DNA of 13,571 bases from Desulfobacterales bacterium. GTDB taxonomy: Bacteria; Desulfobacterota; Desulfobacteria; Desulfobacterales; UBA2174_A. Positions within the stretch are counted from its first letter, which is position 1. Every line of letters starts with the position of its first letter. Both the position numbers and the translations under genes were made by a program. The stretch covers positions 1 through 13,571 of the forward strand of contig JALOPD010000080.1 of NCBI GenBank assembly GCA_025454075.1, in the 5' to 3' direction. Below, one piece after another: positions 2 through 13,571 of this stretch. The notes under the pieces were generated by a model that was given only the letters and a program-made list of their open reading frames with translations, had not been told where the DNA came from and did not search any database.

Positions 2-595
2 ATGGACTGCAAGGCCTCCTACGAGATCAACCCCACCGGCCCCAACCAGCCGATCCAGAAGGGCGAGTGCCTCGACCCCAAGCTCGGCCAGTGGAAGGGC
101 GTCAACGAGTTCGTGTACAAGGCCTCGCGCGGCGCGGTCAGCCACTACAACTTCTACTCGATGGTGCACAGCCCCATGACCACCTGCGGCTGCTGCGAGG
201 CCATCGCGGCCATGCTGCCCTCCTGCAACGGGATCATGACCGTCAACCGCGACTACAGCGGCGAAACCCCCTGCGGCATGAAGTTTACGACGCTGGCCGG
301 CGTCATGGGCGGCGGCGCTTCCTCGCCGGGGTTCGTGGGCCACTCCAAGTTCAACATCACCCAGGGCAAATTCATCCTGGGCGACGGCGGCATCAAGCGC
401 CTGGTGTGGATGCCGAAGATCCTCAAGGAGGAGATCCGCGAGCGGCTCATCAAGCGCGGCAAGGAAGTGGGGATACCCGACCTGATCGACCGCATCGCCG
501 ACGAGACCGTCGGGACGACCGAGGAGGAGATCCTGCCCTTCCTGAAGGAGAAAAACCACCCGGCGCTGTCGATGGACCCGATCATCGCCGGATAA
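2..595 (+). CDS. acsB: CO dehydrogenase/acetyl-CoA synthase, acetyl-CoA synthase (beta) subunit, C-terminal part
   Basis: This is the 3' end of acsB; the frame is open to the left edge, so the true start lies outside and the Met at position 2 is internal. AcsB assembles acetyl-CoA from a methyl group (delivered by the corrinoid iron-sulfur protein), CO and CoA at the nickel-containing A-cluster in the cytoplasm. The 197 residues present match the C-terminal domain of bacterial AcsB. Visible landmarks are KASYEIN near the left edge, the Cys-Gly-Cys motif at 185-193 (TTCGCCEAI) that bridges the two nickel ions, TLAGVMGGG, and a C-terminus reading HPALSMDPIIAG. The cysteines for the [4Fe-4S] part of the A-cluster should lie upstream and cannot be checked. 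The family assignment is secure. A GC-rich hairpin and acsC follow. Confidence 0.96.
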   Translation: MDCKASYEINPTGPNQPIQKGECLDPKLGQWKGVNEFVYKASRGAVSHYNFYSMVHSPMTTCGCCEAIAAMLPSCNGIMTVNRDYSGETPCGMKFTTLAGVMGGGASSPGFVGHSKFNITQGKFILGDGGIKRLVWMPKILKEEIRERLIKRGKEVGIPDLIDRIADETVGTTEEEILPFLKEKNHPALSMDPIIAG

Positions 596-681: not shown

Positions 682-2022
682 ATGGCATTAACCGGGATTC
701 AGATATTCAAGCTCCTTCCGAAAACCAACTGCAAGGAATGCGGGGTGCCGACCTGCCTGGCCTTCGCGATGAACCTGGCCTCCGGCAAGGCCGAGCTCGA
801 CAGCTGCCCCTACGTCTCCCCCGAAGCCCGGGCGGCGCTCTCCGAGGCCTCGGCGCCCCCGATCCGGCCCGTGGCCCTGGGCAAGGGGGTGCGGGCGGCG
901 ACCACCGGCGGGGAAACCGTGCAGTACCGCCACGAAAAGACCTTTTTCAACCCGACCCTGCTCGCGGCGACGGTCGCATCGGATATTTCCGAGGCGGCCC
1001 TCGCGACCCAGCTGAAGAAGTGGAACGCCTTCCAGTACGAGCGCGTGGGCCTCAACCTGCGGCCGGAGCTGGTGGCCGTGAGGGACGTCAACGGCAACGC
1101 CGAGGCCTTTGCCAAGACCGCCAAGACCATCGCCGAGACCTCCGAGTTCAACCTCGTGCTGATGACCGAAAAGCCGGCCGTGATGAAGGCCGCCGTCGCG
1201 GCCACGAAGTTCAAACGCCCGTTGATGTATGCCGCCACCGCCGCCAATCTGGCGGAGATGGGTGCGCTGGCCAAGGAGAGCGGGCTGCCGCTCGCCGTCA
1301 AGGCCGGCTCGGTGGCCGACCTGATCCCGCTGACCCAGAAGCTCACCGAGATGGGGTTGAAGGACCTGGTGCTCGACCCGGGCTGCCGGGAGATCAAACA
1401 GGCGCACCAGGACATGATCGCCATCCGGCGCGCGGCGCTCAAGGACGGCAACCGGGCGCTCGGCTTCCCGACCATCGTCTTCCCGTGCGAGATGGCCGGG
1501 AACCTCGATGTCGAAACCCTGCTGGCGGGGACCTTCGTGGCCAAGTACGGGGGGGTGGTCGTGATGTCGGACTTCGCCGGTGAAAACCTCTTCCCCCTGC
1601 TGCTGGAACGGCTGAACATCTTCACCGACCCGCAGCGGCCCATGACCGTGACCCAGGGGATCTACGAGATCAACAACCCCAACGAGGCCTCGCCGGTGAT
1701 GGTGACGACCAACTTCGCCCTGACCTACTTCATCGTCTCCGGCGAAATCGAGGCGAGCCGCGTCCCCTCCTACCTGCTGATCAAGGACTCCGAGGGCCTG
1801 TCGGTGATGACCGCCTGGGCGGCCGGCAAGTTCGCGGGCGACGACGTGGGCATGTTCGTGAAGAAGAGCGGCATCGAGGAGAAAATCAAGAAGAAGGAAG
1901 TCATCATCCCCGGCTACGCCGCCGCCATCGCCGGCGACATGGAGGAAGAGCTGCCCGGCTGGAAGATCACGGTGGGGCCGCGGGAAGCCGCGCACCTTCC
2001 GGCCTTCCTCAAGTCCAAATAA
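682..2022 (+). CDS. acsC: Corrinoid iron-sulfur protein (CFeSP) large subunit
   Basis: AcsC is the large subunit of CFeSP, the cobalamin- and [4Fe-4S]-containing methyl carrier of the Wood-Ljungdahl pathway. It accepts a methyl group from methyl-tetrahydrofolate via AcsE and donates it to the A-cluster of AcsB. The N-terminus shows the cluster-binding spacing Cys17-X2-Cys20-X4-Cys25-X16-Cys42. The middle should form the TIM-barrel and the C-terminal part the corrinoid-binding domain. At 446 residues it is the usual length. The start is supported by AGGAG at 671-675, 6 nt before the ATG. It lies 86 bp after acsB on the same strand, and an acsE-type gene follows after 85 bp. Its partner acsD is not in the window. 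In many acetogens acsD sits beside acsC, so here it is probably upstream or elsewhere. Confidence 0.95.
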   Translation: MALTGIQIFKLLPKTNCKECGVPTCLAFAMNLASGKAELDSCPYVSPEARAALSEASAPPIRPVALGKGVRAATTGGETVQYRHEKTFFNPTLLAATVASDISEAALATQLKKWNAFQYERVGLNLRPELVAVRDVNGNAEAFAKTAKTIAETSEFNLVLMTEKPAVMKAAVAATKFKRPLMYAATAANLAEMGALAKESGLPLAVKAGSVADLIPLTQKLTEMGLKDLVLDPGCREIKQAHQDMIAIRRAALKDGNRALGFPTIVFPCEMAGNLDVETLLAGTFVAKYGGVVVMSDFAGENLFPLLLERLNIFTDPQRPMTVTQGIYEINNPNEASPVMVTTNFALTYFIVSGEIEASRVPSYLLIKDSEGLSVMTAWAAGKFAGDDVGMFVKKSGIEEKIKKKEVIIPGYAAAIAGDMEEELPGWKITVGPREAAHLPAFLKSK

Positions 2023-2107: not shown

Positions 2108-2998
2108 ATGATTTTAATCGGTGAAAGCTTGAACGTCATCAACAAGAAGATCGGCAAGGCCTACAAGGAACGCGATCCGAAGCCGATCCAGGAGGAAGCA
2201 CTGTTCCAGAAGTCCAAGGGCATGGACTACATCGACATCAACCTCGGGCCGGCCAAAAAGGAAGGCCACGAGCTGATGCCGTGGGTGGTGAAGACGGTCC
2301 AGGAAGTGGTCCCGGACCTCCCCCTGGCCCTGGACACCTCCAACATCGACGCCATCGCCGCCGCGCTCAAGGTCTACAAGCCCACCGCCCAGCCGCCGCT
2401 CATCAACTCCATCATGGTGCGGCCGGAGCGCTACGAGAAAATGGTACCGATCGCCAAGGAGCACGACGCCGATTTCATCGCCCTGATGTGGGGGCCGGAA
2501 GGCCTGCCGCGCGACGAGAACGAGCGCGCGGCCCTGTGCGTGGAGCTGCTGTACTTCGCCAACGAGGCCGGGATTCCCAACGAGAAGATCTGGGTCGACG
2601 GCATCGTGACGCCGGTGAACATCCAGCAGCCGCAGGCCATCAGCCTGATGAACTTCCAGTCCATGATCCCGGACATGGCGCCGGGCGCCAAGAGCACCTG
2701 CGGCCTGTCGAACATCTCCAACGGCCCTCCGGGCCACCTGCGGCCGATCCTGAACCAGACCTACATGGTGATGCTGCAGAAGCACGGCATGTACTCGGTC
2801 ATCGCCGACCCGCTGGACGACCAGTTGATCGCCATCGCCAAGGGCAAGCGCCAGGACATCGTGGACCTGATCTACGGCATCATGGACGGCACCCAGCCGA
2901 ACCTGGCGTCGCTTTCCAAGGAGATGCAGGACTACGTCAAGACGGTCAACGTCATTCTCGGAAACACGCTGTACTCGGACTCCTGGCTCGACATTTAA
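2108..2998 (+). CDS. acsE: Methyltetrahydrofolate:corrinoid iron-sulfur protein methyltransferase
   Basis: AcsE (MeTr) transfers the N5-methyl group of methyl-tetrahydrofolate to Co(I) of CFeSP, joining the methyl branch to acetyl-CoA synthesis. The 296-residue protein has the pterin-binding (DHPS-like TIM barrel) pattern throughout: GESLNVI at the N-terminus, DINLGPA, LALDTSN with Asp76, INSI with Asn100, WVDGIVTP with Asp164 and GLSNIS with Asn202. These match the pterin-contacting Asp/Asn positions described for the Moorella enzyme. It is about 30 residues longer than that enzyme; the extra length is mainly near the C-terminus, before NTLYSDSW. The ATG at 2108 is preceded by a strong GAGGGGAGGG ribosome-binding site (2095-2104); a TTG at 2078 in frame is rejected. 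A related corrinoid-protein methyltransferase is the only serious alternative, and the acsBC context favours AcsE. Confidence 0.92.
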   Translation: MILIGESLNVINKKIGKAYKERDPKPIQEEALFQKSKGMDYIDINLGPAKKEGHELMPWVVKTVQEVVPDLPLALDTSNIDAIAAALKVYKPTAQPPLINSIMVRPERYEKMVPIAKEHDADFIALMWGPEGLPRDENERAALCVELLYFANEAGIPNEKIWVDGIVTPVNIQQPQAISLMNFQSMIPDMAPGAKSTCGLSNISNGPPGHLRPILNQTYMVMLQKHGMYSVIADPLDDQLIAIAKGKRQDIVDLIYGIMDGTQPNLASLSKEMQDYVKTVNVILGNTLYSDSWLDI

Positions 2999-3199: not shown

Positions 3200-3814
3200 A
3201 TGCCCCGCATCGACGACTACATCACCGCCTGCCGGCTGGCAAGGGGGCAACTCTCGATGGAACCCTGCGAGGTCCTCTCGGTGCGCTCCGGGTTCGAGCC
3301 GGCGGATCGAGGCGCCCTGCGCATCCCCTTCCTCAACCGCCTCTATCGCCTGAGCTGCCCGGGGCTGGAGTTCACCGATGCCTCCGCCGACGGCAAGGAG
3401 GTCCCCTTGCAGGAGCAGGTGCTGATCCTGCACTATCTCCAGGCGGACCTGCCGGCGGGGCCGTCCGGCGACTGGGTCGCTTACCGCGAGATACCGGGGG
3501 CGGCGTTTTACTTCGGCGCCTTCGTGAAGCGGGCGGTCGACCCCCTCAAGAAGGCGTTCGGGCAGGACGTCGCCGGGTTCGGCCGCGCGGCGGGTCGGCT
3601 GCGGGGCGAGCCGCTCGAGATCGGGGACGCCGGCTACGAGTTTAGGGTCCTCCCGAAGGTCCCGGTCCGCCTGGTGCTCTACGCCGGCGACGAGGAATTC
3701 CCGGCCGAGGCCAACATCCTCTTCGACCGCAGCATCGGCCGGATGCTCTCGCCCGAGGACGTGGCCTGGCTGGCCGGGATGCTGGTGTACCGGCTGATCG
3801 CCCTCTTGCGATAG
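3200..3814 (+). CDS. DUF3786 domain-containing protein
   Basis: This predicted 204-residue soluble protein has no signal peptide or membrane segment. The C-terminal half carries the pattern I associate with DUF3786: a PVRLVLYAGDEEFPAEA stretch, then ILFDRSIGRML and a PEDVAWLAG segment. The N-terminal half is less recognisable. DUF3786 has no established biochemical role. The family occurs in anaerobes, often near corrinoid or one-carbon genes, which fits its place downstream of acsE, but a role in CFeSP metabolism is only inferred. It is probably a separate transcript, because a terminator-like hairpin and an inverted repeat precede it. The ATG at 3200 lacks a clear ribosome-binding site. An in-frame TAA at 3170-3172 rules out an ATG-started longer form. 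A long palindrome begins exactly at its stop codon. Confidence 0.75.
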   Translation: MPRIDDYITACRLARGQLSMEPCEVLSVRSGFEPADRGALRIPFLNRLYRLSCPGLEFTDASADGKEVPLQEQVLILHYLQADLPAGPSGDWVAYREIPGAAFYFGAFVKRAVDPLKKAFGQDVAGFGRAAGRLRGEPLEIGDAGYEFRVLPKVPVRLVLYAGDEEFPAEANILFDRSIGRMLSPEDVAWLAGMLVYRLIALLR

Positions 3815-4279: not shown

Positions 4280-7200
4280 ATGGATGCAGCCCCCAAAGTC
4301 AAATCCAAAGCCCTCGAGGTCAACCTGGCCGATTACCACGTCGAAGTGGCCGTCGACCCGAAGTACGCCGTGCTCCAGGAGGTCCTGAGCAAATACTACG
4401 GCTTGATGGAGGGGCTGAACACGTTCCTGGGGGAACTGTCCCACCCGTACCTGAATTGGCGCTTCATCGTCAGCGAGGCGCGCAAATATGCGCTGGACTA
4501 CTTTCACCTGTTCCGGCAGCACCCGCGCGGCCCGGACGCCGCCCGCCTGGTGGCGGAGATCCTCATCACCGCCGTTCGTTCGGCCCGGTCGGGGGAGGTG
4601 GCCTCCTCCGCCGTCGACAACCTGCTCCTCTACCTGCAGACCATCCTAAGGGAGTCCGATGCGGACTTCGGGCGGTTCCGTCCGGTCGTCAGCGAGGCGT
4701 TCGCGCAGATGCATCAGCTGCCGGAGGAGGCCTTCGGCCTCGTGGTTCGGAGCTACTATCCCGTAAAGCGCCTGGCGGCGGCGTTTATGAAACGCTCCGC
4801 GGCCTCCCGGGAGGGGTTCGCCCCTCTCCATCGCCTGCTGGCCAGGTATTTCGACCACACCTATGCCTACTGGTTGAGCGAGAGCGACCCCGAGGCCGCC
4901 TGCGACCGGGAGGCCGCCGAATTCGGCGGGGCCGGTGCCTGCGACGACCTCTTTGACGACATCTCCCACCGCCGGATCCGGGCGTGGCAGGCGGAGCTGC
5001 TGGCGGCCCGGGACCCGGCGGACCCGGATTCGCGGGAGGCCGCGGATCGGCTGCTCGCCCTGCCCGGGTTCGACCATTTCGTCGGGGCGTACAAGAAGAT
5101 CCCCCAGCAGCTGCTGCAGCGCGGCGCCGCCGGCGGCCGGGGCCGGCACCTCAAGCTGATCTTCCTCTTTCAGATGATGAATGTCGCCGGTCTGGCCTTG
5201 ATCCACGAGGAAACCCTGCGGGACATCAACCAGACCTTGACCTGGATCATCGTCAACGAGAACTACCGCAACATCCAGCAGTTGATCCGCAAGACCTTCT
5301 CGATCCTGAAAGAACGGTCGCAGAGCTACCCGGCGACGGCCCTCACCTGTGTGCTCAACATGGGCAGAGGGGTCTACAAGACGGACGACATCGACCTATT
5401 GAATTTTTTCATCGACGCCCTCATCGATTTCGGCTTTCAGTCGCCGTCGCTGCAGGGGGTGGACGACGAGTGGCGGATAAGGGTCAACAGCTCGCACCTG
5501 CTGAACATCCGCACCTGGCTGGAGTTGATCAAACTGAACCCGAAGCGCTCGACGCGGCTGCTCTCGGCCCTGGTCATTCACCTGTCCGTGGGCGGGGTGC
5601 TCATCCGCGACATCGACCTGTTCCCGCGGGATGTGACGGGGCTTCTCAACAGCCCGGTCCACCCCGCCTACCACCTCGTCAAGCAGCTGGCCCGTTTGTG
5701 CCCGGTGTTTTTCAACGACATCGGCGCTGAAGGGCGGCTGCGGGACGTGTCCACCCGCATCGACGAGCTTTCCCAGCGCCGGGATGTTCTCGTTCATTTC
5801 CTGCGCAAGCAAAGCCACGTCGAGAGCAGCAACCAGATCATCCCCTTCATGGAGGCGGCCTTCCGGTTCTGGCAGACCCAGGAAAAAGAGGGTCTGGCGC
5901 CGTTCGTGCCGCCCTCGATTTTCGATCAGATCGATTCGAGGGGCCCTCACGTCAAGGGGCTTCACCGCGTCATGCAGCGGCTGGTGAAGAAGGGTGTCCG
6001 CATCCCCGACGACCTGCTGACGCTGCCGCCGGAAGACCTGGCCTCCCGGCTGGGATATGTCCCCGGCGTTTCCACCGTCGACATCGAGCGGTTCGAGCTG
6101 GCCGTCGAGTTTTACAAACTGCTGTGCCAGAAATACCGGTTCGGCATCGTGGAGCTGGAAAACTACCTGTCCCAATTGCGGCCCGAGGCCCTGCCGGAGC
6201 TGAGCCGCCTGGAGCAGGCGCTGGCCGAAACCGATGCGCCCCGGCGGATGGCTCTCCTCCTGGGCTATCTCGAGACGCTGAAGGCGGTCATCACCTCCGA
6301 TGCCGTCTACGACATCCGCGAGGACATCTACCAGAAGCGGCACATCACCATCGACATCCCCTCCATGTACGGCAGCTACCACGAGATGAAGTTCGACTGC
6401 CTGGGACTCACGCTGCGGCTGGAGGCGATCGTGAACGCGCTCTTCGAGAGCTTGATCCGCGACATCGACCTCACCCTGATCACCCAGGCCACCTTCGGCC
6501 AGATCCACCAAACGTTGCAGCTGTTCGACCAGGCGCTGCGGCTGGACGGCATCCGGTCGGCGGAATTTGAACGCCAGTTGGAGTTTTTGAGAGACTCGCT
6601 GGCCGTCAAGGGATTCACACTGACCCAGTACCTGGACATCTTCAAGGGTTTCGCGCAGGCCGTGCAGAACATCATCAAGGACCACTTCAACAACCTGCAC
6701 GGGGCGAACCTGAACCGGATCCTGCCGCAGCTGCCGGCGGAACGGGTCCTGCCGAAGTATCTGCCGCGGGAGCCCCTGGAGGACCGCGAGCGCTTGAACC
6801 ACCGCATCGCGGAGATTTTTTTCCGCGACCAGATCGCGGGCGCCCTGGGCCTTCAGCAGCTGGACCTGTTTTTGGGCCGGATTCTGAACACGCTCTTCCA
6901 GCAGTCCTACAAACTGCCCCAGGCCCAGCTGCGGCAGCTGCTGCTGTACGACCCGCACACCAGCCTGGTGGCGATCGACTCGCCCCACAGCTGCGAGATC
7001 GGGGTGATCCATCTCGGAACCAAGGGCTTCAACCTGGTCAGACTGCACGACCTCGGGTTCCGGGTGCCCCCCGGCTTTGTCGTCACCACCGAGGTCTTTC
7101 GCTGCCGCGAGGTGATCGAGAGCTATGCGCCGGCGCAGCGCTACTTTCACGAACAGATCACCCGCCACCTGCGCCGGCTGGAGCAGGCCACGGGCAAGGT

Positions 7201-8473
7201 CTTCGGCGACCCCGCCAACCCCCTGCTCCTGTCCGTGCGCAGCGGGTCCGCCATCTCCCAGCCCGGGATGATGGACACTCTCCTCGACGTGGGCAACAAC
7301 CTGGACATCGCCGCCGGTGTGGCCGGCCGCACCGGCAACGCCTGGTTCGCCTGGGACAACTACCGGCGGTTTCTCCAGAACTACGGCATGGCGCACGACA
7401 TGACCCGCGACGACTTCGACGCCGTGATCGCCGACGGCAAGCGGCGATGGGGGATCCCGCTGAAGCGTCATTTTTCAGGCGAGCAGATGCGCGAGGTGGC
7501 GCTCGCCTACCGGCGTCTGATCGAGGAGGCCGGCATCGAGATGATCGACTCGCCCATCGAACAGCTGCTGCTCGCGATCCGCCGGGTGCTGGCGTCCTGG
7601 GAATCCCCGAAGGCGCTGGCGTACCGGTGCATCATGGGGATCTCCGACGACTGGGGCACCGCCATCGCCATCCAGGCCATGGTCTACGGGAACGTGTCCC
7701 CCGAAGCCGGCACCGGGGTCATCTTCACCCACAACCCGCGCTGGTCCGGGGACGTGCTGAAGCTCTGGGGGGACTTCACCACCGCCAATCAGGGGGAGGA
7801 CGTGGTCTCCGGGCTGGTGCGCACCATGCCGATCTCGCTCTTTCAGCAGGACATCGAAATGCGGGAGACCGACGTCACCCTGGAGACGCACTTCCCGGAG
7901 ATCTACCGCGAGCTGAAGCGTTGGGCCCACGCGCTGATCGACGACCACGGCTGGAGCCCCCAGGAGATCGAGTTCACCTTCGAAGGCCCATCGGCCGCCG
8001 ACCTCTACATGCTGCAAACGCGGGACATGGCCATTCGCGAAAGCCCGAAGGTGTTGACCTTCGATTTCGAGGCGCCGCCCCACGACCTGCTGCTGGGCCA
8101 CGGCATCGGCGTTAGTGGGGGCGCGATGAGCGGCCGGCTGGTGTTCGGCCTCGAGGACATCGAGGCGTGGCGGGTGCGGGAGCCGAGCACGCACCTCATC
8201 CTGGCCCGCACCGACACGGTGCCCGACGACATCCGCGAGATCAACGCGGCCGACGGGCTGCTGACCGCCAGGGGCGGCTTGACCTCCCATGCGGCGGTCG
8301 TGGCCCACCGCCTGGGCAAGACCTGCGTGGCGGGGTGCGGCAGCATGGAGTGCAGCGAACGCGAAAAGGTGTGCACCTTCCCCACCGCCGTGCTGAAGGC
8401 CGGCGATTGCCTCAGCATGGACGGTCAGGAGGGGTCGGTGTATCGGGGAATCATCCGGGTCAAGGAGGCGTGA
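4280..8473 (+). CDS. Pyruvate phosphate dikinase-like protein with a ~900-residue unassigned N-terminal region and no PEP/pyruvate barrel
   Basis: The protein has 1397 residues. Residues ~905-1265 match the ATP-grasp domain of pyruvate phosphate dikinase: LGTKGFNLVRLHDLG with Lys915, SVRSGS with Arg987, SQPGMMDTLLDVG, EFTFEG with Glu1231 and LQTRD with Gln1246/Arg1248. Residues ~1285-1390 are the swivelling phosphohistidine domain, with His1337 in GGLTSHAAVVAH. The chain ends where that domain ends, so the C-terminal PEP/pyruvate TIM barrel of true dikinases is missing. Residues 1-900 look soluble and largely helical; I recognise no family there. ATP-dependent autophosphorylation of His1337 is plausible, but the acceptor is unknown and the N-terminal region may bind it. 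It should therefore not be called ppdK outright. The ATG at 4280 is preferred to an in-frame GTG at 4262; neither has a clear ribosome-binding site. The GAPDH-like gene begins 2 nt after its stop. Confidence 0.88.
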   Translation: MDAAPKVKSKALEVNLADYHVEVAVDPKYAVLQEVLSKYYGLMEGLNTFLGELSHPYLNWRFIVSEARKYALDYFHLFRQHPRGPDAARLVAEILITAVRSARSGEVASSAVDNLLLYLQTILRESDADFGRFRPVVSEAFAQMHQLPEEAFGLVVRSYYPVKRLAAAFMKRSAASREGFAPLHRLLARYFDHTYAYWLSESDPEAACDREAAEFGGAGACDDLFDDISHRRIRAWQAELLAARDPADPDSREAADRLLALPGFDHFVGAYKKIPQQLLQRGAAGGRGRHLKLIFLFQMMNVAGLALIHEETLRDINQTLTWIIVNENYRNIQQLIRKTFSILKERSQSYPATALTCVLNMGRGVYKTDDIDLLNFFIDALIDFGFQSPSLQGVDDEWRIRVNSSHLLNIRTWLELIKLNPKRSTRLLSALVIHLSVGGVLIRDIDLFPRDVTGLLNSPVHPAYHLVKQLARLCPVFFNDIGAEGRLRDVSTRIDELSQRRDVLVHFLRKQSHVESSNQIIPFMEAAFRFWQTQEKEGLAPFVPPSIFDQIDSRGPHVKGLHRVMQRLVKKGVRIPDDLLTLPPEDLASRLGYVPGVSTVDIERFELAVEFYKLLCQKYRFGIVELENYLSQLRPEALPELSRLEQALAETDAPRRMALLLGYLETLKAVITSDAVYDIREDIYQKRHITIDIPSMYGSYHEMKFDCLGLTLRLEAIVNALFESLIRDIDLTLITQATFGQIHQTLQLFDQALRLDGIRSAEFERQLEFLRDSLAVKGFTLTQYLDIFKGFAQAVQNIIKDHFNNLHGANLNRILPQLPAERVLPKYLPREPLEDRERLNHRIAEIFFRDQIAGALGLQQLDLFLGRILNTLFQQSYKLPQAQLRQLLLYDPHTSLVAIDSPHSCEIGVIHLGTKGFNLVRLHDLGFRVPPGFVVTTEVFRCREVIESYAPAQRYFHEQITRHLRRLEQATGKVFGDPANPLLLSVRSGSAISQPGMMDTLLDVGNNLDIAAGVAGRTGNAWFAWDNYRRFLQNYGMAHDMTRDDFDAVIADGKRRWGIPLKRHFSGEQMREVALAYRRLIEEAGIEMIDSPIEQLLLAIRRVLASWESPKALAYRCIMGISDDWGTAIAIQAMVYGNVSPEAGTGVIFTHNPRWSGDVLKLWGDFTTANQGEDVVSGLVRTMPISLFQQDIEMRETDVTLETHFPEIYRELKRWAHALIDDHGWSPQEIEFTFEGPSAADLYMLQTRDMAIRESPKVLTFDFEAPPHDLLLGHGIGVSGGAMSGRLVFGLEDIEAWRVREPSTHLILARTDTVPDDIREINAADGLLTARGGLTSHAAVVAHRLGKTCVAGCGSMECSEREKVCTFPTAVLKAGDCLSMDGQEGSVYRGIIRVKEA

Positions 8474-8475
8474 TC

Positions 8476-9732
8476 ATGGCGGCATCGGTCGGTTCCGAAT
8501 TAAAACTGGGCATCAACGGCCTCGGCCGCATCGGGAAGCTGACGCTCTGGCACCATGCGGCCCGAAAATTCTTCGGCGAGATCGTGGTCAACCTCGGCCG
8601 CAAGGCGGGGACCTCCCTGTCGGACGTCGCCCATTACATCGAGCGCGACTCCACCTACGGGTGGCTGCACGGCTATCTCTACGGCCATCAGGCCCGCTCC
8701 GTCGTCACCGACATCGACGAGGCCAAGGGCCGCCTGCGGATCGACGGCCTCCCGGTCCGGTTCCTGCGCGAGACGCGCAACCCGGCCGAGATCGGCTGGG
8801 CCGAGCACGGCGTGCGGCTGGTCGTGGACGCCAGCGGCCAGTTCCTGGACCCCAGCGCCGGCCCGGATGCCGTCAGGGGCTCCGTGCGCGGGCACCTGGC
8901 GGCCGGCGCCGAGAAGGTGGTGGTCTCGGCCCCCTTCAAGCTCAAGGACAAGGCGGCGCCGATGCCGGCGGACATCATCACCACCGTCATGGGGGTGAAC
9001 GGCAACGACTACGACCCGCGGCGGCACCGGATCGTGTCCTGCGCGTCCTGCACCACCACCTGCCTGGCGCACATGATGCGCCCGCTCATCAACGCCTTCG
9101 GGGCCAAGCGCATTCTGTCGGCGTCCATGGCCACCGTGCATGCGGCCACGAGCTCCCAGGAGGTGCTCGACCGGCTGCCGGAGGCCGGCAAGACCGACCT
9201 GCGCAAGAGCCGCAGCATCCTGAACAACATCATCCTCACCTCGACCGGTGCGGCCAACGCGCTGCGCCTGGTCATCCCGGAGATGAAGGACATCCCCTTC
9301 ATCGCGGAGTCGGTGCGCATCCCCACCAGCACGGGCTCGCTCATCATCCTGGTGATCAACCTCCAGGAGGAGCCCGCCGGCGGCCGCATCGATCGGGCGG
9401 CGATCAACGCCATCTACCGCCAGGCGGCAGCCGACACCCCGGAGGGCTACCTGCTCTACAGCGAGCAGCAGAACGTGTCGGCCGACATCATCGGCATGCC
9501 GCGCGCGGCGGCGATCATCGAAAGCTGCGAGACCCACACGCGCACGGCCGAGGCCTCGGTGGACCTGTCGAAGGTCCCCGGGATGCCTCCGGAGCTGCTG
9601 GCCTCCCTGAAAAGCATGGTGATCCGGGTCCCGGTGACCCAGGCGGTGATCTACGGATGGTACGACAACGAGAAGGGCAGTTACGTCCGCATGCTGGGCG
9701 ACCGGACGGTGTCCATCGCCGAGACGCTCTAA
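8476..9732 (+). CDS. Glyceraldehyde-3-phosphate dehydrogenase-like protein, long divergent form
   Basis: This 418-residue homologue of phosphorylating GAPDH (usual length ~335) keeps the Rossmann start GINGLGRIG (residues 12-20), the nucleophile Cys192 in SCASCTTTCLAH (usual form SNASCTTNCLAP), catalytic His222 in TVHAATSSQ, the NNIILTSTGAA segment, SVRIPT and the C-terminal WYDNEKGSY. The reaction would be oxidation of glyceraldehyde-3-phosphate to 1,3-bisphosphoglycerate, or the reverse in gluconeogenesis. Differences are notable: the Asp that normally follows Asn after the second beta strand and contacts NAD is absent (VNLGRKAG, residues 38-44), two Asn near the nucleophile are Cys189 and Thr195, and ~40 extra residues precede Cys192. 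Another aldehyde substrate or NADP use is possible. AAGGAGG at 8462-8468 sits inside the end of the preceding gene, and 2 nt separate stop and start, indicating translational coupling. A housekeeping gap gene may exist elsewhere. Confidence 0.85.
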   Translation: MAASVGSELKLGINGLGRIGKLTLWHHAARKFFGEIVVNLGRKAGTSLSDVAHYIERDSTYGWLHGYLYGHQARSVVTDIDEAKGRLRIDGLPVRFLRETRNPAEIGWAEHGVRLVVDASGQFLDPSAGPDAVRGSVRGHLAAGAEKVVVSAPFKLKDKAAPMPADIITTVMGVNGNDYDPRRHRIVSCASCTTTCLAHMMRPLINAFGAKRILSASMATVHAATSSQEVLDRLPEAGKTDLRKSRSILNNIILTSTGAANALRLVIPEMKDIPFIAESVRIPTSTGSLIILVINLQEEPAGGRIDRAAINAIYRQAAADTPEGYLLYSEQQNVSADIIGMPRAAAIIESCETHTRTAEASVDLSKVPGMPPELLASLKSMVIRVPVTQAVIYGWYDNEKGSYVRMLGDRTVSIAETL

Positions 9733-9905: not shown

Positions 9906-10003
9906 ATAAAAGCGGCCTTCCACGTCCGGTCACAGGAGCGATTGACGACCGCCGTGTCAAAAAACTTCGTTCGGCAGCGGAACAGACCGAAGGCCGCTTT
10001 TAT
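9906..10003 (-). other. Structured inverted-repeat element with nested hairpins
   Basis: ATAAAAGCGGCCTTC (9906-9920) and its perfect 15-bp complement (9989-10003) enclose 68 nt. Inside, CACG..CGGTC (9921-9931) pairs with GACCG..CGTG (9947-9956), and TTCGG / CCGAA can form a second hairpin, giving a three-way-junction-like fold. The right arm overlaps the TAA stop (10000-10002) of the minus-strand ABM gene, so on that strand it would form its 3' UTR. It could be a mobile-element remnant, an RNA-stability element or part of a termination region. I recognise no known RNA family. Confidence 0.5.
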
Positions 10004-10296
10004 CCGGTGAACCCGTAGTGGTAGACTTCGTAGGTGGTTTCCCCGCCCAGCAGTTTGTCCACCTTGGCCTGGATCTCTTTGCGGTCCCGGCTGGCCAGCC
10101 AGTTCTTCCAGTCCTGCGAAGATTGCCAGGTGCTGATCACGATGAATTCTTCGGGCTTTTCGAGGCTGCGCAGGGTCTCGCCGGAGATGTAGCCTTCCTG
10201 CGCCGTGGCCAGCATGCGCATCTGCCGGAAGAGGGTGATCATCTCCCGGGCCTTGTCTGCGGACACTCGTCGTTTGATCAATACCTTGATCGCCAT
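10000..10296 (-). CDS. Antibiotic biosynthesis monooxygenase (ABM) domain protein
   Basis: This 98-residue single-domain protein has the pattern of the ABM / dimeric alpha-beta barrel fold: the opening strand MAIKVLIKRRV, a helix with KAREMITLFRQMR, GYISGETLRSLEKPEEFIVISTWQS, then SSQDWKNWLASRDRKEIQAKVD. Members range from heme-degrading or quinol monooxygenases to proteins with no known reaction. The substrate here cannot be read from sequence, and the ABM name does not imply antibiotic synthesis. The ATG is well supported, because the minus strand carries GGAAGGAGGG just upstream (complement of 10302-10311). It is transcribed opposite to the GAPDH-like gene and shares a bidirectional terminator region with it. 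A hairpin and 220 bp separate it from rsmA on the same strand, so it is probably a separate transcript. Confidence 0.85.
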   Translation of the reverse strand: MAIKVLIKRRVSADKAREMITLFRQMRMLATAQEGYISGETLRSLEKPEEFIVISTWQSSQDWKNWLASRDRKEIQAKVDKLLGGETTYEVYHYGFTG

Positions 10297-10345
10297 GACA
10301 CCCTCCTTCCGAAAACACCTCGTTTAGGCTTTGATCTCCTGTCAA

Positions 10346-10374
10346 AGAGTAGACCAGCCGCCCGACACGGTCAA
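10346..10374 (-). promoter_or_regulatory. Candidate promoter for the ABM gene
   Basis: Read on the minus strand, TTGACC (complement of 10369-10374) is followed after exactly 17 bp by TACTCT (complement of 10346-10351). The -35 is strong and the -10 is weak. The start would fall about 45 nt upstream of the ATG. No operator is evident. Confidence 0.35.
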
Positions 10375-10481
10375 GCCCCAAGCAAAATCGCTCAAAGCCG
10401 GCCGGCCCGCCGTTTCCTCGAGCGGTGCCGACATCGGCGTTGATTCAAAAGTGATTCGGCTCCTCCCCTTGGTTCCTGGCA

Positions 10482-10521
10482 AATGAATCATCCCCGCCGT
10501 TTACGGAGGGGATGATTCATT
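10482..10521 (-). terminator. Hairpin at the rsmA stop, probable terminator
   Basis: AATGAATCATCCCC (10482-10495) pairs perfectly over 14 bp with 10508-10521, and the loop contains a further CCGT/ACGG stem. On the minus strand it overlaps the rsmA TGA (10517-10519) and is followed only by TTTGCC. Termination is therefore likely but not classical. Confidence 0.6.
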
Positions 10522-11374
10522 CGGGCATCAGACGCCTCAGGCTGATTTCCAGGGCGACGAACTCCTCCGCCGACAGGGTCTCGGCGCGCCGCGCGGAGTC
10601 GATTCCCGCTTGCTCCAGCGCGCGGGCCGCCAGGCCGGGGCTGATCGAAAGCCCCGATGCGGACAGCGCGTTCCTGAGGGTTTTTCTGCGCTGGCCGAAG
10701 GCCGCGGCGATCAGTTTGAACAACCGGGCTTCATCGTGAGGCGGGTCGGCGCGGGGCGGCGCAAATCGGATTTCGAGCACCTCGGAGTCGACTTTGGGGA
10801 CGGGGTGGAAGGCTCCGGCCCCGACGCGGCACAGGGGCTTCACCGCCGCGCAGTAAGCGAGCATGGCGGTGATGCGGCCGTAGTCCCTGCCGCCGGGCGG
10901 CGCTGTCAGCCGGACCGCCAGTTCCCGTTGAAACATGAGCACGGCTCTCGGCACGTGTCGGCGGGATTCGATTAAACGGATCACGACCTGAGAGGAGATG
11001 TTGTAGGGAAGATTGCCGAAGACGGTGAGCGGTCGGCCGGCCTGCCGGGCCAGGCCGGCCCAGTCGATGTCAAGAACATCCGCCTCCACCATCTGCACAT
11101 TTGAGACCCCGGCGGCCTGAAGCTCGTCTTTCAGGACCGCAGCGAGACGGCGGTCTTTTTCGATGGCGATCACGGACCGCACCGCCTGCGCCAGAGGAAG
11201 CGTCAACGCACCCAGGCCGGGGCCGATTTCCACCACGACATCTTCCTGGCAGACCCCCGACCGGTTCACGATCATCTGCGCGATCGAAGGGTCGGAAAGG
11301 AAGTTCTGCCCCAGCCGCTTCTGCGGATGAAGCGCATGCAAACGGAGAAGCGCTCGAGGAGACATCAGGGCCAT
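10517..11374 (-). CDS. rsmA: 16S rRNA (adenine(1518)-N(6)/adenine(1519)-N(6))-dimethyltransferase
   Basis: RsmA (KsgA) uses S-adenosylmethionine to dimethylate two adjacent adenines in the 3'-terminal helix of 16S rRNA, a late small-subunit maturation step. The 285-residue product has every expected landmark: KRLGQNFLSD (19-28), the SAM-binding VVEIGPGLGALT with GxGxG-type loop at 51-55, the acidic EADVLD, the catalytic NLPYNISS (121-128), FQRE, and the C-terminal FGQRRKTLRNAL helical region. It is close to the usual ~270-residue length. The ATG at 11374 is chosen; Met4 at 11365 is an alternative start. A longer reading from a TTG at 11464 adds 30 residues that do not look like the family. 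No clear Shine-Dalgarno is visible. It is a housekeeping gene, divergent from the small winged-helix gene. Confidence 0.96.
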   Translation of the reverse strand: MALMSPRALLRLHALHPQKRLGQNFLSDPSIAQMIVNRSGVCQEDVVVEIGPGLGALTLPLAQAVRSVIAIEKDRRLAAVLKDELQAAGVSNVQMVEADVLDIDWAGLARQAGRPLTVFGNLPYNISSQVVIRLIESRRHVPRAVLMFQRELAVRLTAPPGGRDYGRITAMLAYCAAVKPLCRVGAGAFHPVPKVDSEVLEIRFAPPRADPPHDEARLFKLIAAAFGQRRKTLRNALSASGLSISPGLAARALEQAGIDSARRAETLSAEEFVALEISLRRLMPE

Positions 11375-11435
11375 TTTCGTTCTACCGACCGAATCGCTTC
11401 GCACACGTAGAAAAAAAGTCCTCGGATTCGGCGGC

Positions 11436-11464
11436 AGCGTAGCAGGAAATCGCGGCGGGATCAA
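11436..11464 (-). promoter_or_regulatory. Candidate promoter for rsmA
   Basis: On the minus strand, TTGATC (complement of 11459-11464) and TACGCT (complement of 11436-11441) are spaced 17 bp apart and lie about 60 nt before the rsmA ATG. Both boxes are partial matches. The call rests on spacing and on the position in a divergent intergenic region. Confidence 0.33.
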
Positions 11465-11500
11465 TCCGGCTGGAGAATCCGCATCTGTTCTTCTCTTTTC

Positions 11501-11529
11501 TTGACTTTTCTAATTTCATCCATTAGGTT
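11501..11529 (+). promoter_or_regulatory. Candidate promoter for the coiled-coil/winged-helix gene
   Basis: TTGACT (11501-11506) and TAGGTT (11524-11529) are separated by 17 bp in an AT-richer patch. The -35 is nearly consensus and the -10 is weak. Transcription would begin near 11536, about 50 nt before the ATG at 11588. It is back to back with the proposed rsmA promoter, about 36 bp away. Confidence 0.4.
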
Positions 11530-11587
11530 GCCTTTCAAATTGCTAATTCGCGGATCAGAAACCACATCCTATAGAGGGAGGCAACCC

Positions 11588-11947
11588 ATGCCTAGAAAAA
11601 AAGGCAAGTCCATCAGTTTCGACGCCATGGTGAAGTTCTTCCTGCACACCTACGATATCCCGACCAAGCGGGATGTCGAAAAACTCATGGGTCGCCTGGA
11701 CCGCCTGGAGACCATGATCGCATCGGCGGCGGCAGCCGGCCGCGGCCGAGCCGTTCGGCGCCGCGGCGGGGTCCCGGCCGCCGAAGCCGTTCTGGGCGCC
11801 ATCAAGCGTTCCCGGCAGGGGCTCAAGTTCGCCGACATTCAAGCCAAAACCGGTTTTGTCGACAAGAAGATCCGCAACATCATTTTCCGCCTGAACAAGC
11901 TCGGCAAAATCAAGCGGCACAGCCGCGGGGTTTACGTCGCCCTATAG
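11588..11947 (+). CDS. Small coiled-coil and winged-helix-like protein, function unknown
   Basis: I do not recognise a named family for this 119-residue protein. Residues 1-10 are basic (MPRKKGKS). Residues ~11-45 (FDAMVKFFLHTYDIPTKRDV and on to RLDRLETMI) form a short amphipathic helix and coiled coil resembling the phasin-type TKRDVE..RLDRLE pattern. Residues ~46-65 are an Ala/Gly/Arg-rich linker. Residues ~66-119 resemble a winged-helix DNA-binding domain, with the LKFADIQAKTGFVDKKIRNI helix-turn-helix and a KIKRHSRGVYVAL wing. A small oligomeric, basic nucleic-acid-binding protein is the best guess. The ATG has GAGGGAGG (11574-11581) just upstream; an in-frame upstream TTG at 11501 lies inside the promoter and is rejected. 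An M16C peptidase gene begins 11 nt after its stop, so the two are probably co-transcribed. Confidence 0.75.
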   Translation: MPRKKGKSISFDAMVKFFLHTYDIPTKRDVEKLMGRLDRLETMIASAAAAGRGRAVRRRGGVPAAEAVLGAIKRSRQGLKFADIQAKTGFVDKKIRNIIFRLNKLGKIKRHSRGVYVAL

Positions 11948-11958
11948 CCGGGTCCTGC

Positions 11959-13571
11959 ATGAACCCCCACGCCGAAGCCTCTCAAACAGACGTTGCCCCG
12001 GGCGACGAGATTCACGGCTATCGCATCCTGCGAGTGGAACGCCTGCCGGAAATCCACGCGGTGTTCCACGAACTGCAGCACCGGGCCACCGGCGCCCGGC
12101 ATATCCACGTCCGCCGGCCGGATCGCGAGAACACTTTCGGTGTCATCTTCAAGACGGTGCCCCGGGATTCCACCGGCGTGGCGCACATCCTCGAGCATGT
12201 GGTCCTGTGCGGATCCGAGCGCTTCCCCGTGCGGGACCCCTTTTTCTCGATGCTCAAGCGCAGCCTGAGCACCTTCATGAACGCTTTCACGGCGTCCGAC
12301 TGGACCATGTACCCGTTTGCGTCCCAAAACCGCAAAGATTTCTACAACCTGATGGACGTCTACCTGGACGCCGCTTTTTTCCCCCGGATAGACGAGCTCA
12401 GCTTTAAGCAGGAGGGCCACCGCCTGGAGCTCGAGCCCGCGGCGGAGGGAGGCGACCGCCTCGCCTACAAGGGGATCGTCTACAATGAAATGAAGGGGGC
12501 CATGTCCTCCCCGGACCAGGTCATGGTGCGCTCGATTTTGAAGGCCCTGTACCCGGACACCACCTACTCCAACAACTCCGGCGGCGACCCGTCCGACATC
12601 CCCTCTTTGAGCTACCACCAGCTGAAGGAGTTCCACCGGCGGCACTACCATCCCAGCAACGCCTACTTTTACACCTACGGCGATCTGCCGTTGAAGGACC
12701 ACCTGGCGTTTATTGCCAGCACCGTTTTGAGCCGGTTCGACGCCATCGACCCGGCGACCGATGTGCCGCCCCAGCCGCGCTGGGACACCCCGCGCACGGC
12801 GCGTTTCCCGTACCCCTTCTCCCGGAACGAGGACCCGGCCCACAAACACCAGACGTGCGTGGCCTGGCTCACGAGCGACATCCGTGAGACGGGCGAGGTC
12901 CTGTCGCTGGCGCTGCTCGAGCAAATCCTGATCGGAAACGCCGGGTCGCCGCTGCGCAAGGCGCTGATCGACTCCGGCCTGGGTTCGGACCTGTGCGACG
13001 GCAGCGGGTACGATGCGGACAACCGGGACACGCATTTCACGGCCGGCTTGAAGGATGTGGCGTCGGACGCGGCGGAGAAGGTCGAGCGGGTCGTCTTCGA
13101 TGTGCTCACCGGCCTCGCCGAACGCGGCATCGACGCGGAGCTGGTGGCGTCCGCCATTCATCAGCTGGAATTTCACCGCCGGGAGATCACCAACACGCCC
13201 TACCCTTACGGCATCAAGCTGCTGCTGGCCGCAGGCGGCACCTGGATCCACGGCGGAGACCCGCTGCGCGTGCTGAAGTTCGACGCCGACCTGGCGGCCA
13301 TCCGCCGTGAAATGGAACGCGGCCGGTTCTTCGAACGGCAGCTCGCGCGGTTTTTTCTGGAGAACCCCCACCGGCTCCGCTTGACCCTTTGCCCCGACCC
13401 GGAAATGGCCGAACGCGAGGAGCGGCGCGTGGCGGCGGAGCTGGGGCGGATCCGACAGGCGCTGACCGTCCCCGAAACCGAAAAGCTGCGGCAGGACGCG
13501 GAGGCGCTGCAGCGGCGGCAGGAGGCCCAGGAGAGCGTCGACTGTCTGCCGACCCTGGAACGCGGGGACAT
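11959..13571 (+). CDS. M16C family zinc metallopeptidase (presequence-protease-like), N-terminal part
   Basis: The reading frame from the ATG at 11959 stays open to the right edge, giving 537 residues of an expected ~970-1000. It belongs to the inverzincin (pitrilysin/insulinase) superfamily, subfamily M16C, related to mitochondrial/plastid presequence protease PreP. The inverted zinc motif HILEH is at residues 76-80 and the distal zinc ligand Glu177 is in YNEMKGAMSS. The conserved flanks ENTFGVIFKTVP, HVVLCGSERFPVRDPF, FMNAFTASDWTMYPF and YHPSNAYFYTYGD are all present. The first two M16 domains and the start of the hinge are included. Such enzymes degrade unfolded peptides inside a closed chamber; no signal peptide is visible, so a cytoplasmic role is likely. 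The ATG has a weak ribosome-binding site and lies 11 nt after the preceding gene, consistent with coupling. Confidence 0.93.
   Translation, partial: MNPHAEASQTDVAPGDEIHGYRILRVERLPEIHAVFHELQHRATGARHIHVRRPDRENTFGVIFKTVPRDSTGVAHILEHVVLCGSERFPVRDPFFSMLKRSLSTFMNAFTASDWTMYPFASQNRKDFYNLMDVYLDAAFFPRIDELSFKQEGHRLELEPAAEGGDRLAYKGIVYNEMKGAMSSPDQVMVRSILKALYPDTTYSNNSGGDPSDIPSLSYHQLKEFHRRHYHPSNAYFYTYGDLPLKDHLAFIASTVLSRFDAIDPATDVPPQPRWDTPRTARFPYPFSRNEDPAHKHQTCVAWLTSDIRETGEVLSLALLEQILIGNAGSPLRKALIDSGLGSDLCDGSGYDADNRDTHFTAGLKDVASDAAEKVERVVFDVLTGLAERGIDAELVASAIHQLEFHRREITNTPYPYGIKLLLAAGGTWIHGGDPLRVLKFDADLAAIRREMERGRFFERQLARFFLENPHRLRLTLCPDPEMAEREERRVAAELGRIRQALTVPETEKLRQDAEALQRRQEAQESVDCLPTLERGD

Follow-up and report, generated by a model that had tools for sequence, protein, structure and literature searches.

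A barrel-less dikinase of the Desulfobacterales and its near-constant partner, a divergent glyceraldehyde-3-phosphate dehydrogenase

The 13,571-nt stretch of Desulfobacterales bacterium DNA analyzed here (JALOPD010000080.1, referred to below as the window) encodes a dikinase that has the ATP-using and phosphohistidine domains of pyruvate phosphate dikinase (PPDK) but lacks the phosphoenolpyruvate (PEP)/pyruvate barrel. Directly behind it lies the gene for GAP2, a divergent glyceraldehyde-3-phosphate dehydrogenase (GAPDH), and the pairing of these two proteins is well supported across genomes. Our preferred reading, to which we give a probability of roughly 40%, is that of an obligate module of two proteins, the dikinase and GAP2, acting at the 3-phosphoglycerate/1,3-bisphosphoglycerate/glyceraldehyde-3-phosphate step, with the dikinase making the acyl phosphate for GAP2. 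The pairing is observed; the chemistry of the module is what we infer. The features on which the argument turns are as follows.

4280..8473, + strand: barrel-less dikinase, 1397 aa plus stop, ATG at 4280
4280..6964, + strand: N-terminal region, residues 1-895, of no known family and conserved in relatives; putative acceptor or partner region
5714..5833, + strand: conserved motif 1, residues 479-518, NDIGAEG.LRD.ST..DE...RRD.L.HFLRK..HVESSN
6326..6424, + strand: conserved motif 2, residues 683-715, IY.KRH...DIPSMYGSYHE.KFD..GL..R.E
7004..8047, + strand: PPDK-type ATP-grasp domain, about residues 909-1256, with Lys915, Arg987, Glu1229, Glu1231, and Gln1246
8093..8452, + strand: phosphohistidine (swivelling) domain, about residues 1272-1391, with His1337 at 8288-8290
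8476..9732, + strand: GAP2, divergent GAPDH, 418 aa plus stop, 2 bp past the dikinase stop and behind GGAGG

An automatic call of the open reading frame (ORF) opens at GTG 4262. Because 1397 aa is the length of P0002, the window's entry in the database, and of many relatives, we place the start at ATG 4280, which leaves the position, start, and residue numbers of the original prediction, made from the letters of the window alone, as they were.

The pairing is best judged from whole genomes, which were drawn as samples of unstated completeness from phyla named after the titles of their centre genomes. In the phylum of Desulfonema magnum (G003), 117 of 395 genomes match the dikinase; two of these, G323 and G397, are weak matches that belong to a remote subfamily, and their removal leaves 115. 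GAP2 is found in 116 of the 395 genomes, and 114 have both proteins. The Fisher p of this co-occurrence, 1.4e-96, ignores shared descent, so that the better argument for pairing is its persistence where the genes are unlinked and in a second phylum. Within the 115 dikinase genomes, GAP2 is directly downstream on the same strand in 71 and on the opposite strand in 16, whereas 23 carry it on a different contig, four carry it at a distance on the contig of the dikinase (among them G320, where it sits at the opposite contig end), and one lacks it. With 23 and four genomes of the latter kinds, linkage alone does not explain the pairing. In the sole genome with a dikinase only, G125, 94 bases separate the end of the gene from a contig end, and in G017, one of two genomes with GAP2 only, GAP2 itself is cut by the contig end. 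The second phylum, that of G006 (titled Nitrospiraceae), has dikinase matches in 21 of 148 genomes, 15 of them strong and six weak, the latter forming what we call subfamily 3. There GAP2 is present at 515 bits or more in 15/15 genomes with strong matches, in 0/6 subfamily-3 genomes, and in 0/19 genomes with neither; those 25 reach at most 153 bits, the level of ordinary GAPDH.

Counts of individual loci agree. After 20 loci cut off near or inside the dikinase and two of the remote subfamily are set aside, 119 of 141 loci are left; GAP2 directly follows the dikinase on the same strand in 101 of these and is a convergent neighbor in five of the other 18. Loci L097-L116 partly repeat L001-L080, so these counts are not independent, and the per-genome counts carry the argument.

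The surroundings of the pair also point to triose phosphates. Positions of gap, GAP2, and pgk were collected in 60 dikinase genomes and tabulated for the 39 with such genes close together, with up to 1.7 kb allowed between neighboring matches because the matches are partial. In 30 of the 60, the dikinase is immediately preceded by an ordinary gap gene in the same orientation. The order gap-dikinase-GAP2-pgk on one strand occurs in eight (G041, G113, G141, G192, G215, G239, G259, and G280) and also in G320, where it runs across the two ends of one contig; dikinase-GAP2-gap-pgk occurs in six (G049, G085, G118, G173, G244, and G382). In four others gap-dikinase and GAP2-pgk stand at separate places (G166, G206, G229, and G251), and in three GAP2-pgk is apart from the dikinase (G026, G064, and G292). 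In G040, G077, and G238, no GAPDH other than GAP2 was matched. Phosphoglycerate kinase (PGK) was found in all 60 genomes, twice as a short fragment, and in 12/12 of a smaller set of dikinase genomes. The dikinase is therefore not needed to replace PGK, and we rejected a simple replacement of this kind.

The catalytic half of the dikinase is that of PPDK up to the point where the barrel would begin. Pfam finds PPDK_N (6.8e-28; 98.3 bits against a cut-off of 27) and the PEP-utilizers mobile domain (7.3e-17; 61.2 bits against 23.1), and the C-terminal ~490 residues align with residues 18-514 of C. symbiosum PPDK (6.6e-85). PPDK chains extend to about residue 873, into the PEP/pyruvate barrel, whereas the dikinase ends after the part matching PPDK residue 514; no PF02896 barrel was detected by Pfam in the dikinase or in the nine other window proteins scanned. 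Lys915, Arg987, Glu1229, Glu1231, and Gln1246 are invariant in 62/62 locus proteins, and His1337 is kept in 61, the remaining one being a gap (three poor rows, L012, L016, and L042, were left out of these counts and of the hydrophobic moments below). We take their PPDK counterparts to be Lys22, Arg92, Asp321/Glu323 for the two glutamates, Gln335, and His455. Both the intact machinery for ATP use and His phosphorylation and the missing barrel had been claimed by the original prediction, and both are borne out.

Several public annotations call the protein pyruvate, orthophosphate dikinase, and its best family match is the NCBIfam PPDK equivalog TIGR01828. Such an assignment would make it an ordinary PPDK or PEP synthase, or a broken remnant of one, and a second protein would have to provide the barrel. 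The TIGR01828 score, 381 bits, is however far under the curated cut-off of 843.45. (The rifampin phosphotransferase model NF041857, RIF_Ptrans_rph, is likewise not reached, at 31.5 bits against 999.) The length of the relatives also speaks against a remnant. A search with the N-terminal region scored the 7,994 candidates that had the most words in common with it and found 1,611 clusters of proteins with E values of 0.001 or below; of the best 120, which were listed, 114 are 1391-1420 aa long. Since so many clusters match the N-terminal region and those listed are so uniform in length, the dikinase is a real, old family and not the product of a break. It had been allowed that a barrel gene might have been detached by a frameshift or an assembly break, but no barrel adjoins the gene and its relatives are equally long. 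Moreover, a separate full-length ppdK, which the original prediction proposed to look for, is common in relatives: a barrel protein is present in all 12 relatives' genomes examined and a PPDK-sized barrel ORF (911-950 aa) in 10, the two without being G005 and G009, the latter of which holds L003, among the closest relatives of the window. Nine of these ten PPDK-sized ORFs showed the PPDK-type His motif; the tenth, L188, was read in the wrong frame. In a quick tree of 44 catalytic domains, which includes the misread L188 row and whose root is open, 20 dikinases fall on one side of a branch with support 82 and the PPDKs of such genomes fall apart from them. As the ten window proteins scanned include no barrel either, we regard the ordinary or broken PPDK as highly improbable.

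The family extends beyond the window's closest relatives. When GTDB species genomes were searched once with a pair of peptide patterns, 85 relatives were confirmed and 80 of them retained. Their titles are Nitrospiraceae for one and Desulfobacterales-type, Deltaproteobacteria, or Olavius-symbiont for the rest. In one relative, L119 (G077), the dikinase frame is interrupted near residue 595. The remote, Desulfomonile-type subfamily comprises 87 proteins of 1485-1543 aa with the same architecture and GGRGAH around the His, represented by loci L117:5873-10330 and L118:4734-9365. Its profile comparison with the dikinase is significant across 1,274 columns, catalytic domains included. Against PDB sequences the profile of this subfamily found PPDKs only; a Pfam scan of 15 of its members showed the PPDK domains and, each in a single member and at E 0.016-0.041, four further families. 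Both Desulfomonile-type loci encode, directly downstream, a 592-aa protein resembling, on inspection by eye alone, a GAF/sigma54-type regulator. Subfamily 3 (L163-L168, six genomes), likewise remote, shares the dikinase architecture in genomes without GAP2; glutamate synthase is directly upstream in L163 and L166.

What stands in place of the barrel is the N-terminal region, for which no known domain was found. Residues 1-900 match no Pfam family, the sole listing being a sub-threshold Viral_Hsp90 at E 0.21, and match nothing in NCBIfam; a 57-sequence profile run against PDB sequences returned one entry at E 0.49, a collagen construct. The initial description of some 900 residues of no recognizable family thus stands. 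Its further description as apparently helical fares less evenly. The mean hydrophobic moment at 100 over that at 170 degrees is 1.91 for residues 1-290, 1.63 for residues 291-595, and 1.25 for residues 596-895, compared with 1.12 for one catalytic domain of the dikinase and 1.21 for the other; plain helix propensity, on the other hand, fails to separate the N-terminal region from the catalytic domains. The periodicity supports a helical structure indirectly, less so for residues 596-895 than for residues 1-595.

The two conserved motifs suggest what this region might do. Both are retained in all four subfamily-3 rows aligned (row s1_L174 of that alignment is a wrong protein, and the invariant-residue list drawn from it was not used), whereas the Desulfomonile-type subfamily keeps motif 1 only in part and has a different motif 2. 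Because subfamily 3 keeps the motifs in genomes without GAP2, these stretches, which are rich in invariant Arg, Lys, and His, are more readily taken for a putative ligand site than for a surface on which GAP2 would dock.

GAP2 itself retains the catalytic and phosphate-site residues of a GAPDH. In a comparison of 87 GAP2 and 36 ordinary GAPDH sequences, and in the residue numbering of GAPDH, GAP2 keeps Cys149, His176, Thr179, Arg195, Thr208, and Arg231 in 87/87, Thr150 in 86/87, and Gly209 in 82/87. The Asp of the GAPDH INDL site binds the ribose of NAD. The corresponding sequence of GAP2 is N(I/L/V)GR; the Gly and the Arg are present in 87/87, and the Asp is lost. Because the nucleotide site has lost its acid and gained an Arg, GAP2 is predicted to prefer NADP(H), which would suit an anabolic role. 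Insertions occur at several points of GAP2, the biggest of them just ahead of the C-terminal WYDNE motif, and the protein scores 316.7 bits against NCBIfam TIGR01534, under the curated cut-off of 367.2.

Pairs of a carboxylate kinase and a GAPDH-fold reductase, such as aspartate kinase with ASADH and ProB with ProA, reduce a carboxylate by way of an acyl phosphate. In the PPDK superfamily, moreover, the His domain ferries phosphate between the ATP-grasp domain and a dedicated acceptor domain. We propose that the dikinase and GAP2 could work in a similar manner. ATP, together with Pi as in PPDK, would phosphorylate His1337, and the His domain would then swing to the N-terminal region, where the Arg/Lys/His-rich motifs could hold the acceptor in the stead of the pyruvate barrel. 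The acceptor would be a carboxylate, most likely 3-phosphoglycerate, which is the natural candidate because the phosphate sites of GAP2 are intact. The acyl phosphate would be passed to GAP2 and reduced by NAD(P)H to the aldehyde, giving a gluconeogenic lane driven by the conversion of ATP to AMP. In its most specific form, the proposal is for a so far unrecognized reaction of central carbon metabolism: an ATP-to-AMP 3-phosphoglycerate dikinase, with PPDK chemistry and a new acceptor domain, would feed the acyl phosphate directly to a dedicated NADPH-type GAPDH as a one-way gluconeogenic lane beside GAPDH/PGK in two phyla. This form is somewhat unlikely.

Several observations count against a dikinase-GAP2 module. 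Genome G090 has GAP2 but no dikinase was found there, despite 15 kb upstream on the contig, and this case is unexplained. Of the 119 loci with room for GAP2, 13 have none adjoining the dikinase (elsewhere in the genome was unchecked for L031, L045, and L072). PGK already makes 1,3-bisphosphoglycerate in every one of the 60 genomes surveyed, including G040, G077, and G238. Nothing in the sequence names the acceptor, and the NADPH call is made from sequence only.

The constant presence of PGK leaves no missing reaction to fill, which is one reason to consider a phosphohistidine regulator as the main rival. The dikinase would autophosphorylate, and its N-terminal region would bind or phosphorylate GAP2, perhaps also ordinary GAPDH, so that the triose-phosphate step is tuned to ATP/AMP/Pi/PPi status and no metabolite is made. 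A strict pairing suits a dedicated target, the remote subfamily adjoins the possible sigma54-type regulator in 2/2 loci, and there is a precedent in mycobacterial VadK (Rv1127c), a barrel-less PPDK derivative that is reported to autophosphorylate His422 and to interact with methylcitrate-cycle enzymes (PMC13400623). The residues that such autophosphorylation would need are present in the dikinase. VadK is without a 900-residue N-terminal region, however, and the motifs of that region, kept in subfamily 3 where GAP2 is missing, look like a ligand site. In addition, GAP2 almost never occurs without the dikinase, which would be unusual for an enzyme that is merely regulated. We therefore think a purely regulatory role somewhat unlikely.

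A module running in the catabolic direction is quite improbable. GAP2 would make the acyl phosphate, and the dikinase would use it with AMP and PPi to form ATP, recycling the AMP and PPi of sulfate activation; the model is PPDK acting on PEP in PPi-dependent glycolysis. The dikinase reaction of PPDK is reported to be reversible and to be glycolytic in several organisms (PMC8100219), and ATP sulfurylase is found in 46/60 dikinase genomes compared with 10/20 genomes without the dikinase (Fisher p 0.046). This association with sulfate activation is weak: ATP sulfurylase was not seen in 14 of the 60, and it is present in half of the genomes without the dikinase. The predicted preference for NADPH would likewise point to biosynthesis.

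Whichever way the module or its regulatory rival is decided, the protein belongs to the PPDK superfamily, with intact ATP and His machinery and a large unassigned region in place of the barrel, as the original prediction had it for an unassigned acceptor. Its suggestion that the acceptor might be a macromolecule finds no support: the near-obligate partner is a GAPDH with intact catalytic residues, and this and the many gap/pgk clusters point instead to a central carbon metabolite, or to that GAPDH itself, as the target. The prediction as a whole is upheld in its architecture and its unassigned acceptor and not in the nature that it proposed for that acceptor.

Upstream of the dikinase the window holds the following genes, identified with Pfam.

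2..595, + strand: acetyl-CoA synthase (acsB type), C-terminal part, cut by the window edge
682..2022, + strand: corrinoid protein large subunit (acsC type)
2108..2998, + strand: pterin-binding methyltransferase (acsE type)
3200..3814, + strand: DUF3786 protein

As in the window, Desulfobacterales-type loci have acsB near the dikinase in 27/80, acsC in 30/80, and the methyltransferase in 35/80. The DUF3786 gene turns up repeatedly with the methyltransferase gene on one side and the dikinase on the other, and it is near the dikinase in 21/80 loci. A general tie to the Wood-Ljungdahl pathway was considered and rejected, CdhD being present in 329/395 genomes compared with 115 for the dikinase and acs neighbors in only 27-35 of 80 loci. 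Downstream, positions 10000-13569 encode an ABM-domain protein (−), an RsmA-type rRNA dimethylase (−), a small, weakly phasin-like protein (+), and an M16 peptidase (+) that is truncated where the window stops, an order that recurs in several loci. In L169-L172, divergent purF-type and M29-peptidase-like genes adjoin the pair (checked in L170 only).

Although the catalogue of triose-phosphate steps in sugar metabolism is considered complete, two proteins that occur widely as a pair in anaerobic bacteria seem to belong there, under the annotations pyruvate phosphate dikinase and GAPDH. If the pairing can be taken at face value, that annotation gives PEP synthesis to a protein without the domain needed for it and overlooks either a reaction or a phosphohistidine control point. 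The open-licence literature searched yielded no description of the dikinase-GAP2 pair. The same cluster is present in Desulfococcus biacutus, where one report lists a 'phosphoenolpyruvate synthase/pyruvate phosphate dikinase' and a 'dehydrogenase' behind acetyl-CoA synthase genes (PMC4103992).

Overall, the dikinase and GAP2 combine features of several known systems. GAP2 has the catalytic Cys-His pair and both phosphate sites of type I GAPDH, but it has 418 residues rather than about 335-350, several insertions, the Gly-Arg at the nucleotide site, and a co-occurring dikinase. The dikinase shares with PPDK (EC 2.7.9.1) the ATP-grasp and swivelling His domains, the catalytic residues, and the TSH motif, and differs from it in having no PEP/pyruvate barrel, a 900-residue N-terminal region, and GAP2 as a partner. 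Glucan and phosphoglucan water dikinases follow the same superfamily logic, with an acceptor domain other than the PEP barrel. Neither they nor rifampin phosphotransferase have an N-terminal region like that of the dikinase, although in the latter, too, ATP and His domains are reported to serve a non-barrel acceptor domain (PMC4844700). VadK is a protein of ~50 kDa from Actinobacteria without the N-terminal region, tied to methylcitrate enzymes and not to GAPDH (PMC13400623). Its layout of two domains only is not that of the dikinase, which has ~900 extra N-terminal residues, but the two are alike in joining an ATP-grasp to a His domain with no barrel and in a proposed tie to enzymes of central metabolism.

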